A stretch of DNA of 36,461 bases from a virus. Numbering within the stretch: position 1 is the first letter of the stretch; every line of letters begins with the position of its first letter. The position numbers and the translations under genes were made by a program. The stretch lies in IMG/VR virus record IMGVR_UViG_3300021963_000345, positions 1 through 36,461 of that record, one strand, 5' to 3'. The notes below the pieces were generated by a model. It saw only the letters and a list, made by a program, of their open reading frames with translations, ran no database searches and was not told where the DNA came from. Below, in pieces: positions 20,114-24,268 of the stretch.

Positions 20114-21605
20114 AAAAATCTTCGGCCCTCCAGGCTCTGGCAAGACAACGTTCTTACTGAACATCGTTGAGCAGGAACTGGGAGACGGCGTTCCATCTTT
20201 GAACATTGGCTACTTTTCTTTCACTAGAAAGGCTGCCAACGAAGCACGGGACCGCGCCATCACCAAGTTCCCTAACCTCAACCCGGACCTTGACTTCCCC
20301 TGGTTTCGCACACTTCACAGTCTGGCCTACCGCTGTCTTGGCATCGGCACAAAAGACATGATGTCGCCAGAAGACTACAAGGCCTTTGCCAAAGAGGCAG
20401 GCATTGAGCTCTCCATTGAGAACGGTGACGAGGACTTCATGGTGAAGGTGGACAACCCAATCCTGAACGAGATCAACATCGCACGGATCAAGGGCCTGGA
20501 CCTGCGCACCCACTACAACCAAAGCAGCATGGACATTGAGTGGTTCCACTTTGAGTTTGTGGAACGCGCTTACCGGCACTACAAGCAAAGCCATGCGCTC
20601 TTGGACTTCACTGACCTGCTCGAGCAGATCGTGCATCAGCCAGAGAGATTGCCAAAGTTGGATGCGCTGATCATTGACGAGGCACAAGACCTCTCCCGCT
20701 TGCAATGGGACCTGGTGACAGAGTTGGCCAAGAGGTCTAAGCGTTCTTTTTTAGCCGGGGATGATGACCAGGCCGTCTACAACTGGGCAGGGGCCGACGT
20801 CGATAGTTTTCTAAACTTTAGCGGCGCAATCACCATCCTCGATCAATCCTATCGCGTGCCTGCCAAAATCCACGCGATCGCAAACACAATTGTGCACCGC
20901 ATCAAAAAGCGCCAGCCAAAGGTTTGGAAAGCTCGCGCTGAAGAGGGGCACATCCATTACTACAACGACTTCTCGCATGTGGACATTACCCATGGCAACT
21001 GGCTAATTCTTGCCAGTACCAACTACATGCTCTCTGAGATGCACACGTGGATCAAGAGCCAGGGCCTGCTGTTCGAGCGCCACGGACAACGGAGCATTTC
21101 AGAAGGCATCCTGTCTGCCGTCCTGGGCTGGGAAAACCTAAGACGCGGCAAAGAATTGCCGTTCCCTGTTGTGAAGAACGTCTACAAGTATTTGGGCTCC
21201 GATTTCATCAAGCACGGGTACAAAGGACTACGGCTCGCGGACCCCAACGGCGCGTACAGCATGGAACGCCTGAGACAAGAACAAGGGCTCTTGGCCCCGG
21301 ACATCATCTGGCACGAGGCACTGCTCAAGATCGGTGAGGACAAACGGGACTACATCATCGCCCTCTTGCGACGCGGCACAAAGCTCACGGGCAACATCCC
21401 CATCAAGCTGTCCACGATCCACGGAGCCAAGGGCGGAGAGGCGGACAACGTGCTACTGCTCGGGGACCTCTCTACGCGCTTTGCCAAGGAATACGAGCGT
21501 AACTCGGACGACGTGAACCGATTGCTGTATGTGGGCATCACCCGCGCCAAGCAAGCATTGCATTACGTGCTTCCAAAGAATGAATTAAAGGGGTTTCGCC
21601 TGTGA
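20103..21605 (+). CDS. UvrD/Rep-like superfamily 1 DNA helicase
   Basis: 500 residues. All SF1A motifs are visible: I GPPGSGKTT (8-16), Ia TRKAANEARDR, II IIDEAQD (190-196), III GDDDQAVYNWAG (219-230), IV DQSYRV, V STIHGAKGGEADNV (437-450), VI LLYVGITRAKQ (474-484). It is shorter than cellular UvrD (about 720 residues), lacking most of the 1B/2B insertions. The 3'-5' polarity usual for this family would unwind DNA ahead of the polymerase. No DnaB-type helicase is seen in the window. The start overlaps the previous gene by 11 bases and the stop overlaps the polymerase GTG. Confidence 0.9.
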   Translation: MEIRKIFGPPGSGKTTFLLNIVEQELGDGVPSLNIGYFSFTRKAANEARDRAITKFPNLNPDLDFPWFRTLHSLAYRCLGIGTKDMMSPEDYKAFAKEAGIELSIENGDEDFMVKVDNPILNEINIARIKGLDLRTHYNQSSMDIEWFHFEFVERAYRHYKQSHALLDFTDLLEQIVHQPERLPKLDALIIDEAQDLSRLQWDLVTELAKRSKRSFLAGDDDQAVYNWAGADVDSFLNFSGAITILDQSYRVPAKIHAIANTIVHRIKKRQPKVWKARAEEGHIHYYNDFSHVDITHGNWLILASTNYMLSEMHTWIKSQGLLFERHGQRSISEGILSAVLGWENLRRGKELPFPVVKNVYKYLGSDFIKHGYKGLRLADPNGAYSMERLRQEQGLLAPDIIWHEALLKIGEDKRDYIIALLRRGTKLTGNIPIKLSTIHGAKGGEADNVLLLGDLSTRFAKEYERNSDDVNRLLYVGITRAKQALHYVLPKNELKGFRL

Positions 21606-24268
21606 AAACAATGCCTATGTTTCCGACGCTCACCGAGTGGGTGCCGCCGGAGACTTTCCCTAACCTGTCCACCGCCAAGGAGATTGCAATTGACTTGGAG
21701 ACTTGTGACCCGCATATGGAATCTTTTGGGCCGGGATGGCCCCGTAATGACGGCTTCATTGCTGGTTACGCTGTGGCTGTTGACGGTTGGAGCGGATACT
21801 ATCCTGTTGCTCACAGCGGTGGTGGCAATCTTGATAAACGTCTTGTTGAGCGGTGGGTAAAAGATGTCCTGGCTACTGACGCTGACAAGATCATGCATAA
21901 CGCGGCTTATGACTGCGGTTGGCTCAGGGCCAACGGTTTCACTATCAACGGCCGAATTTGCGACACCATGCTTGCCGCCCCGCTTCTCGACGAGAACCGC
22001 TTCTCGTACAGCCTCAATGCGCTTGGCTTCGATTACCTTAAAGAGGTCAAGTCAGAGGCCGCTCTCAAACAGGCTGCTGCCGACTTTGGCGTTCATCCCA
22101 AGAAAGAATTATGGAAGCTACCCGCCATGTACGTCGGGGAGTACGCCGAGCAAGACGCGGCGCTGACTTTGAAACTGTGGCAACACTTCAAGACCAAGAT
22201 GCGCCAAGACGAGGTCGAATCCATCTTCGACCTGGAGACAGCGGCCTTTCCCGTGCTGTTGGAGCTCACCTTGAAGGGCATCCGCTTTGACCGGGAAAGG
22301 TGCGAGAAAACTATCCACAAACTTGTCCAACGGGAGAAGGCCATCTTTGCAGAGCTCAAGTCTTTGTGTGGAGGAACTGTGGATATCTGGGCGGCCGCCA
22401 GCATTGCCCATTCGTTTGACAAGCTGGGGATTGCTTATGGCAAGACCGCCGCCGGCGCGGCAAGCTTCACAAAAGGCTTCCTCGATTCCTGTGACCATCC
22501 TGTGGCCAAGCTGATTGTTGAAGCGCGAGAGACCAACAAGACCCACAGCACGTTCTTGCAGCCTTACCTCGACTTCAGCGCCAAGACAGGAAGAGTTCAC
22601 CCGCATGTGAATCAGATGCGCAACGACGAAGGCGGCACGATCACCGGCCGTCTGTCCATGAACAGCCCCAACCTCCAGCAAGTGCCCGCTCGCCACGAGA
22701 TCATCGGGCCCATGGTGCGCTCGCTCTTTTTACCGGAAGAAGGTCAACTGTGGGCGGCCAACGACTTCTCCTCCCAAGAACCACGGCTCTTGGTGCACTA
22801 CGCCACGCTCTTGGACCTGCCCGGTGCAGAGAAGATGGCTGAGGCCTATAGGGAAAATCCCGATACCGACTTCCACCAAATGGTTGCCGATATGGCAGGG
22901 ATCAAGCGAAAGGATGCCAAGACCATCGGCCTTGGTCTTTGTATTGCGGAGGGCGAAATGGTCCTTACGGACAGCGGCCTTGTTCCAATTGAGAACGTGA
23001 CGGAAGTGCATAAAGTATGGGATGGGGTAGAATGGGTAGCACATGAAGGAGTGGTCTTCATGGGAACCAAAGAGGTCCTCACTTATGGCAATCTCACAGC
23101 AACACCGGACCATGACGTCTGGACAAACGAATCAGGGAAAATTCCTTTCCGGCTCGCAGCATCAAGACTGGATGCACTTGTTTTCACCGGAGATGCTGAA
23201 CAAGCAGTTCGGTATGTGGACGGTCATCAGCAGGGAGGTTCAGCGCGTAGGAAAGCATCAATACGCGAAGGTGCGCTGCGCTTGTGGGGCCGAGGACTGG
23301 AAGCTCTTAGACAACTTGAAGAGTGGAAAATCTACAATGTGCAAGCCCTGCACTATGCGAAAGCAGCATGCGGGGAGGGGGCACTTGATTGTGGATTCCA
23401 ACGAGATGAAATCCCTGCAAAGAAGGGCCACGGCGGCGATGCAGAGATGCCAAAATCCCAAAGACAAGGGCTGGAAACATTATGGTGGCCGTGGAATTCA
23501 ATGCGAGTTTCCCTCAGTAAAGGCGTTTGTGGAATATTTGACGTCCTTGCATCCTGCTTCAGATTGGGAGGGCATGACCATAGACCGGATCAACAACGAG
23601 GGGAACTACGCAGTCGGGAATATCCGAAAGGCTTCCTACCGAAAGAACAACCTGAACAGAAGAAATACTCGAAAGTCTATGACATCGTAAACGCGGGGCC
23701 TAGACATCGTTTTACTGTGTCCAATGTCCTGGTGTCTAACTGCTACGGTATGGGCAAGGCAAAGCTGGCCCATGAGTTGGACTTGCCTATGGAAGAGGCC
23801 AGCGAGCTAATTGGCATCTTTCACACTAAGGTGCCTTTTCTTAAAGGCACCATAAACGCGGTCATGAAACGGATTGAACACCCTGCGTCTGGTGGGTCCA
23901 TCAGGACGCTACTTGGACGCAAATGCCGCTTCCCGCTGTACGAGCCCGTACAGTGGGGCGTGAACAAGGCGCTTCCCTACGAGCAGGCCATCGTGGAATA
24001 CGGCCCAAGGATCAAGCGCGCGGCCACCTACAAGGGCCTGAACAAACTGATCCAGGGGTCAGCCGCCGACCAGACCAAGGCGGCCATGGTGGCGTTGCAC
24101 AAGGCTGGGTTTCACTTGATGCTTCAGGTTCACGACGAGATTGCCCTGAGCGTCAACACAGAGAAGGAAGCACGCGAAGCGGCCCATATCATGGCGACCG
24201 CCGTTGACCTGGAGGTTCCCTCCCGGGTGGACGTGGAGATGGGCCCAAGCTGGGGTGAAGCCAAGTAA
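21602..24268 (+). CDS. polA: Family A DNA polymerase precursor containing an intein
   Basis: 888-residue precursor; 621 residues after removal of a 267-residue intein. GTG 21602 is chosen because AAGGGG lies nine bases upstream and it overlaps the helicase stop. The N-terminal DEDDy 3'-5' exonuclease has DLE (31-33), Asp104 and Tyr181-x3-Asp185. Polymerase motif A is NDFSSQEPRLL (Asp388). Motif B/O-helix is KRKDAKTIGLGL joined to CYGMGKAKL after splicing. Motif C is QVHDEIA (His844-Asp845-Glu846, precursor numbering). There is no 5'-3' exonuclease domain. It ends the replication operon before a terminator. Confidence 0.92.
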   Translation: MKTMPMFPTLTEWVPPETFPNLSTAKEIAIDLETCDPHMESFGPGWPRNDGFIAGYAVAVDGWSGYYPVAHSGGGNLDKRLVERWVKDVLATDADKIMHNAAYDCGWLRANGFTINGRICDTMLAAPLLDENRFSYSLNALGFDYLKEVKSEAALKQAAADFGVHPKKELWKLPAMYVGEYAEQDAALTLKLWQHFKTKMRQDEVESIFDLETAAFPVLLELTLKGIRFDRERCEKTIHKLVQREKAIFAELKSLCGGTVDIWAAASIAHSFDKLGIAYGKTAAGAASFTKGFLDSCDHPVAKLIVEARETNKTHSTFLQPYLDFSAKTGRVHPHVNQMRNDEGGTITGRLSMNSPNLQQVPARHEIIGPMVRSLFLPEEGQLWAANDFSSQEPRLLVHYATLLDLPGAEKMAEAYRENPDTDFHQMVADMAGIKRKDAKTIGLGLCIAEGEMVLTDSGLVPIENVTEVHKVWDGVEWVAHEGVVFMGTKEVLTYGNLTATPDHDVWTNESGKIPFRLAASRLDALVFTGDAEQAVRYVDGHQQGGSARRKASIREGALRLWGRGLEALRQLEEWKIYNVQALHYAKAACGEGALDCGFQRDEIPAKKGHGGDAEMPKSQRQGLETLWWPWNSMRVSLSKGVCGIFDVLASCFRLGGHDHRPDQQRGELRSREYPKGFLPKEQPEQKKYSKVYDIVNAGPRHRFTVSNVLVSNCYGMGKAKLAHELDLPMEEASELIGIFHTKVPFLKGTINAVMKRIEHPASGGSIRTLLGRKCRFPLYEPVQWGVNKALPYEQAIVEYGPRIKRAATYKGLNKLIQGSAADQTKAAMVALHKAGFHLMLQVHDEIALSVNTEKEAREAAHIMATAVDLEVPSRVDVEMGPSWGEAK
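22940..23740 (+). other. Intein in DNA polymerase motif B
   Basis: 267 residues. Block A starts at Cys1 (CIAEGEMVLTDSG). Block B carries TPDH (residues 55-58; His58). Block F is VYDIVNAGPRHRFTV and block G ends VLVSN before the +1 Cys of the C-extein (CYGMGK). Splicing would restore the O-helix. The penultimate residue is Ser rather than the common His. The linker between blocks B and F, from about 23193 to 23650, is the out-of-frame shadow of an HNH endonuclease gene, with no recognisable endonuclease in the intein frame itself. All residues needed for class 1 splicing except the penultimate His are present. Confidence 0.92.
23043..23690 (+). CDS. HNH homing endonuclease nested out of frame in the intein
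   Basis: 215 residues at most, in the +1 frame relative to the polymerase. The recognisable protein begins near Met51 (base 23193): MLNKQFGMWTVISREV, then zinc-ligand-like C79-x-C81 and C100-x2-C103, HYGGRGIQCEF (146-156), and TIDRINNEGNYAVGNIR (179-195), followed by an Asn/Arg-rich tail. This is the HNH pattern of phage homing endonucleases. Possible starts are ATG 23043, ATG 23085 (AGAGG nine bases upstream, best spaced) and ATG 23193 (GGAG directly adjacent, poorly spaced). It would cut intein-less polA alleles. Its end overlaps intein block F. Confidence 0.85.
   Translation: MKEWSSWEPKRSSLMAISQQHRTMTSGQTNQGKFLSGSQHQDWMHLFSPEMLNKQFGMWTVISREVQRVGKHQYAKVRCACGAEDWKLLDNLKSGKSTMCKPCTMRKQHAGRGHLIVDSNEMKSLQRRATAAMQRCQNPKDKGWKHYGGRGIQCEFPSVKAFVEYLTSLHPASDWEGMTIDRINNEGNYAVGNIRKASYRKNNLNRRNTRKSMTS

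Follow-up and report, generated by a model that had tools for sequence, protein, structure and literature searches.

A phage DNA polymerase intein that probably encodes its HNH nuclease as a separate protein in an overlapping reading frame

The DNA polymerase gene (polA) of the phage analysed here is interrupted by an 801 bp element that is, with high confidence, a composite selfish unit: a splicing mini-intein in the polymerase frame combined with a separately started HNH nuclease in the +1 frame that presumably homes. According to this proposal, the mini-intein would splice itself out of motif B and restore the polymerase, carrying between its two splicing halves a disordered loop of about 140 residues. 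In the +1 frame, a complete HNH nuclease would be produced as a protein of its own from an internal Shine-Dalgarno (SD) sequence and an ATG at position 23085, both located within the N-terminal splicing half. This nuclease would presumably cut intein-less polA genes near motif B, and repair of the break would copy the whole element into the cut gene. Splicing and cutting would then very probably be carried out by two proteins made from overlapping genes, an interpretation already put forward in an earlier note on this DNA and now supported by selection on both frames, by a conserved SD and start codon, and by suppression of synonymous change. The computational evidence comprises the exact insertion point, the predicted intein fold, the dual-frame selection, the start signal, the recurrence of the layout and a discordance in divergence between intein and host gene. 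All coordinates refer to the window, i.e., the whole stretch of 36,461 nucleotides that was analysed (IMG/VR record IMGVR_UViG_3300021963_000345).

The polymerase intein and its empty site

The polA reading frame (21602-24268, plus strand) encodes 888 amino acids and has no internal stop. Its GTG start overlaps by four bases (21602-21605) the stop of an upstream gene for a UvrD-like helicase, and the same gene order is found in the intein-less phage DSL-LC04. Alignment with the empty site of this phage defines the two exteins: the N-extein (21602-22939, plus strand) ends with KRKDAKTIGLGL in what we take to be motif B of family-A polymerases, and the C-extein (23741-24268, plus strand) begins with the +1 Cys (CYGMGK). 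Once spliced, the window polymerase would have 622 codons including the stop, exactly as in DSL-LC04; the two proteins share 76% of their residues, and the DNA around the insertion point agrees at 94 of 120 bases. DSL-LC04 provides an exact empty site, GLGL being followed directly by MYGMG where the window reads GLGL, the intein and then CYGMG. The Met of the empty gene in place of the Cys of the occupied one is expected if the residue required for splicing arrived with the element. The insertion is thus in frame, within an intact host gene for which an empty allele exists.

The intein itself (22940-23740, plus strand; 267 residues, 801 bp) carries the features of class 1 inteins (Cys or Ser at position 1, TxxH in block B, a C-terminal Asn and Cys, Ser or Thr at +1) as Cys1, TPDH in block B, the block F/G sequence VYDIVNAGPRHRFTVSNVLVSN, Asn267 and the +1 Cys. 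The penultimate residue is Ser266, where most relatives have the common, not obligatory, His. The N-terminal splicing half (residues 1-85; 22940-23194, plus strand), identified by alignment, contains Cys1 and blocks A and B, and is modelled by AlphaFold with pLDDT above 90 over most of its length. The C-terminal part (residues 241-267; 23660-23740, plus strand), identified by alignment and by the model, contains blocks F and G and the terminal Asn. Both parts are mostly confident in the model and together form a HINT fold, which superposes on the Mtu RecA intein with a Z score of 16.6 over 116 residues at 2.1 Å. Searches with the intein found no match among PDB sequences and no usable domain in Pfam or NCBIfam. 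Collectively, motifs, model and empty site confirm that a class-1-type intein interrupts motif B of a phage family-A polymerase and bear out the polymerase-frame intein that the earlier note had placed at exactly these coordinates; splicing itself is predicted from the sequence.

Between the two splicing parts, intein residues 93-232 (23216-23635, plus strand) are free of stops and predicted to be disordered, almost all of them having pLDDT below 50. The element resembles mini-inteins such as the Mtu RecA splicing domain and the Ssp DnaB mini-intein in its HINT fold (Z about 15 to 17) and differs from them by these approximately 140 additional intein-frame residues that lack a predicted fold and whose DNA encodes the HNH protein.

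Two side observations concern the polymerase. Its top NCBIfam match is DpoZ, an aminoadenine-incorporating polymerase, at 331 bits even when spliced; this lies below the cut-off of 500 bits, and the use of aminoadenine is not claimed. Pelagibacter phage HTVC023P has a related polymerase without an intein and a free-standing endonuclease gene that overlaps the end of polA (L181:3320-3742).

The overlapping HNH gene and its probable translation start

The HNH gene (23085-23690, plus strand) lies in the +1 frame, as the earlier note had stated, within an open reading frame spanning 23043-23690; from the ATG at 23085 to the TAA stop (23688-23690) it encodes 201 amino acids. Its product matches the HNH profile PHROG_374 (E 1.1e-27), as do 40 of 40 aligned members. 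Thirteen residues are invariant among the 40 HNH relatives, including Cys65, Cys67, Cys86, Tyr133, Arg136, Asp167-Arg168 and Asn179 (numbered from ATG 23085), and all 13 are present in the window protein together with its four cysteines, the YGGRGI sequence and the DRIN...GNY...GN motif. The protein therefore combines the profile and the conserved core of a phage HNH endonuclease, and the core is intact, as had been claimed. The earlier placement of the HNH between blocks B and F holds for the domain proper, which has zinc-ribbon-like cysteines (23193-23687, plus strand; 165 residues); the protein probably starts 36 codons earlier, so that it overlaps intein block B as well.

The core is of a D-R...N type and does not show the textbook His-Asn-His. 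AlphaFold folds the protein well (mean pLDDT 85.7), and PacI (3LDY) ranks first among the solved structures compared, with a weak match (Z 6.5, 81 residues, 2.6 Å). Sequence searches of the PDB with the HNH protein found no match, plain Foldseek with the HNH model returned no HNH enzyme among the matches listed, and no domain could be assigned from Pfam or NCBIfam, apart from weak HNH_3 matches in four relatives. In PacI, Asp and Asn are metal ligands and a Tyr is the probable general base (PMC4081073). The conserved D-R...N and Tyr fit these ligands and this base, and may by analogy have the same catalytic roles; PacI, unlike the window protein, is a restriction enzyme.

The probable signals for a separate start lie within intein codons 44-50. 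An SD-like sequence, AAAGAGGT (23069-23076, plus strand), is embedded in the Lys44-Glu45-Val46 codons at a distance of 8 nt upstream of the ATG at 23085, which is itself formed by the Tyr49 codon (TAT) and the following G. This arrangement, with GAGG-type bases inside the Lys-Glu-Val codons, is found in most relatives inserted in motif B. Relative to the codon usage of each locus, both codons are biased: TAT encodes Tyr49 in 56 of 64 cases (28.6 expected), and GAG encodes the Glu in 47 of 56 (26.7 expected). In one locus (L012), His replaces Tyr and the ATG is still there (CAT-G). Several loci without this ATG have another one 12 nt upstream, formed by His-Val or Asp-Val codons and usually preceded by AGGAG; five (L101, L126, L079, L096 and L073) have no ATG at either position. 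The mean predicted energy of anti-SD pairing is -9.1 kcal/mol for the conserved ATG (-6.5 in the window), compared with -2.5 for ATGs overall and +0.5 for the later ATG at the start of the domain. In the six elements of the second, APSE-1-type insertion group the start is found at one position, occupied by GTG, ATG or TTG with G-rich bases upstream. The group with the HNH in the +2 frame (Salmonella phage f18SE and relatives) has a candidate start position with a weak SD, occupied by ATG, GTG or TTG in five of six and by CTG in f18SE.

Synonymous change in the intein frame follows the same boundary. Within the clade of the window, it drops from 0.49 in codons 1-44 to 0.17 in codons 49-84. The ratio of synonymous change in codons 63-84 to that in codons 1-44 averages 0.39 in nested inteins (0.25-0.53 in equal-sized subsamples) and 0.80 in mini-inteins without an HNH (n = 17); codons 49-62 taken alone show no clear separation (0.66-0.89 in nested inteins, 0.86 in the mini-intein control). 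The ATG is still found in 18 of 19 mini-inteins without an HNH, which weakens the start-codon argument on its own, and its presence there could be an inheritance from nested ancestors. The in-frame ATG at 23193, often present in relatives, was rejected as the start, as it has no SD and the synonymous suppression begins at about 23085. The HNH thus probably starts at the conserved ATG 23085 with an SD located inside intein codons. Codon-position rates (see below), the conserved SD and start, and the stronger suppression of synonymous change where an HNH is present together indicate that the HNH is translated as its own protein.

The same overlap might instead be read by a programmed +1 ribosomal frameshift that fuses the HNH to the N-terminal part of the intein, the HNH having no start of its own. 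The HNH frame is indeed open ahead of the domain, where it overlaps block B, and a frameshift just upstream of 23085 would likewise produce synonymous constraint from about that point. This mechanism is nevertheless improbable, given that many relatives have stops in the HNH frame shortly before the ATG, that codon usage does not account for the conservation of the ATG and SD codons, and that loci lacking the ATG often have a replacement 12 nt upstream with its own SD.

Recurrence, selection and signs of mobility

Relatives with a nested nuclease of this kind were sought in viral and cellular genome collections and in phage records with three queries: the whole intein, the HNH, and intein residues 1-69, the last of which makes no demand for an open intein frame beyond residue 69. 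All three frames of each locus were then scanned with one HNH profile. The searches yielded 142 fetched loci with a full-length nested HNH, some of them overlapping fetches of one contig, which clustered at 80% identity into 78 representatives on which the statistics were computed; the nested layout, for which the earlier note had proposed looking in other phages, is far wider than reported. Among the representatives, the HNH lies in the +1 frame in 77, in the +2 frame in one and in the intein frame in none. In-frame relatives, which the earlier note had named as evidence that would count against its reading, were likewise absent from all 142 loci when every frame was scanned with this profile. 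The arrangement of canonical nuclease inteins, in which the endonuclease belongs to the same polypeptide as the splicing domain, was accordingly not found.

The layout also occurs in host genomes, in Gardnerella, Streptococcus, Anaerococcus and Peptoniphilus (isolate genomes included) and in Corynebacterium, spirochaetes and Synergistales. Beyond the one +2 representative, the HNH also lies in the +2 frame in Salmonella phage f18SE, Escherichia Pubbukkers, Pseudomonas MR14, Vibrio 97.13 and EBPR siphovirus 2. The +2 group (L004, L038, L025 and L030-L032) shows zero intein-frame stops and may represent an independent origin of the nested layout. The flanks tested with Pfam are DNA polymerase A, save for two loci (L073 and L097) in which they are an SF2 helicase. 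In this phage helicase, the nested intein lies at GRG.R...GK..^CLVLDF (^ marks the insertion point), and a third locus (L177) has the identical junction. Related nested inteins in polA are found at the junctions GLGL^CYGMG, AKT^C[ST]L, AEL[AS]^CGYGG, GKVA^CLALGYQG and TYGGKL^CEN, i.e., at several insertion points, some of them five codons apart (22939/22940 in the window; L006-L012, L046 and L050; L077 and L111; L003, L020 and L021). Three loci (L109, L150 and L170) have a mini-intein of 121-138 residues and, some 320-500 residues further downstream, an HNH that is out of frame, which suggests a second nested intein within one gene. In the phage records inspected, the HNH is mostly unannotated and the gene is labelled 'DNA polymerase' alone, APSE-1 being an exception.

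Selection is evident in both frames. Over the 78 representatives, the intein frame contains no stop where 620 were expected from synonymous-codon shuffles of the HNH, and the third frame contains 869, which argues that the overlap is not due to chance. In the +1 layout, an HNH codon ending in T before AA, AG or GA would create an intein-frame stop; T is found at 0 of 3936 such positions, compared with 24.5% elsewhere. Over the overlap, substitutions between the window and either of two related loci (L005 and L006) track HNH codon positions (0.26/0.19/0.45 for L006). Protein identity to L005 and L006 is 90% and 72% in the HNH frame, 70% and 47% in the intein frame, and 67% and 47% in the third frame. 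As the HNH is better conserved than the intein frame, and the latter is close to the third, the intein frame over the HNH domain appears to be kept open and otherwise little constrained, in agreement with the disorder predicted for residues 93-232. The HNH is under purifying selection, and a dead HNH was ruled out by this selection.

In several pairs, the intein is less diverged than its host gene, which supports horizontal movement. Third-position divergence between the window and L005 is 0.23 in the intein and 0.61 in the exteins; the corresponding values for another pair (L124 and L085) are 0.37 and 0.75, and their polymerases are only 28% identical. This discordance is consistent with homing, for which empty-site cleavage by the HNH would be needed. 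Degenerate forms also exist: the Javan422 intein is 141 codons shorter than that of Javan255, most of the HNH having been deleted with the intein frame kept, and mini-inteins are found at the same kind of site in Ruminococcus phages and S. sciuri. We interpret nested, deleted and mini forms as resembling a homing cycle in which the element is gained, decays and is lost.

These data bear on the reading in which the nested HNH is real and expressed, has lost its homing role through adoption of another role or weak catalysis, and leaves the intein as a passenger. The D-R...N core in place of His-Asn-His and the modest similarity to PacI would agree with it; the purifying selection on the HNH with its 13 invariant residues, the lower divergence of inteins than of host genes, and the HNH-deleted and mini forms at the same kind of site, as a homing cycle predicts, make it quite unlikely. 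Phage group I introns commonly carry HNH genes, and an intron removed from the RNA would account for such an insertion, yet this is very unlikely for an element whose length is a multiple of three, which is open in the polymerase frame (as it is in the 78 representatives), contains intein blocks with a confident HINT model, and in whose region (22600-24100) Rfam gives nothing relevant at E values up to 10. An in-frame HNH displaced by assembly or sequencing indels, the artefact against which the earlier note had cautioned, found no support and has a negligible probability, since two compensating indels would be required in each of 142 loci from many projects, isolates included, and the HNH is in frame in none.

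Relation to known systems and implications

The composite of a splicing mini-intein and a separately started HNH shares with canonical inteins of the PI-SceI type, which have an in-frame homing endonuclease, the position of the nuclease between blocks B and F, and differs from them in the frame of that nuclease. The Synechocystis GyrB intein, for instance, is an HNH intein with the nuclease in frame. A nuclease encoded in another frame should be a separate protein and not be released by splicing. One possible reason why it was never found in frame is that its dose is thereby uncoupled from the amount of host protein; another is that interference with the splicing fold is avoided.

A closer parallel is the ShiLan domain, a published case in which an HNH is inserted out of frame into a mycobacteriophage DNA methylase (PMC11855218). 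In both systems the insertion has no stop in the host frame and encodes, in a different frame, an HNH protein with zinc fingers; both also show a patchy distribution suggestive of homing (PMC11855218). Whereas ShiLan has neither splicing motifs nor an intein fold, the host frame here encodes an intein, with its blocks and HINT model. For ShiLan, the proposed start is a GTG at which no ribosome-binding site is detectable, in contrast to the conserved SD and ATG described here. On the subject of overlapping reading frames, that paper cites a 2025 preprint by Gosselin, Arsenault and Gogarten about actinobacteriophage inteins of 'non-canonical architecture' and the 'Non-canonical inteins' of Gorbalenya (1998). 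To judge from these citations, both papers may describe inteins of this kind, and priority is therefore uncertain; the literature search, whose reach did not extend to these two, found no description of an out-of-frame nuclease inside an intein.

The layout contradicts the assumption that the nuclease of an intein must be in frame, a rule applied in the Felix O1 genome paper, which dismissed inteins on the grounds that its HNH ORFs did not share the frame of the flanking sequence (PMC3185647). On balance, we lean towards regarding inteins with overprinted nucleases as a widespread unrecognised class, with a hidden internal start, two relative frames, several polA sites and at least one SF2 helicase site, and cycling between nested, deleted and mini forms. 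They would offer a clean case of dual coding in which mini-inteins serve as a natural control. As splicing and cutting are separated within one mobile element, mutations can target one and spare the other; the internal start can be abolished by changes that leave the intein protein as it is, so that the dependence of homing on nuclease dose can be tested directly.
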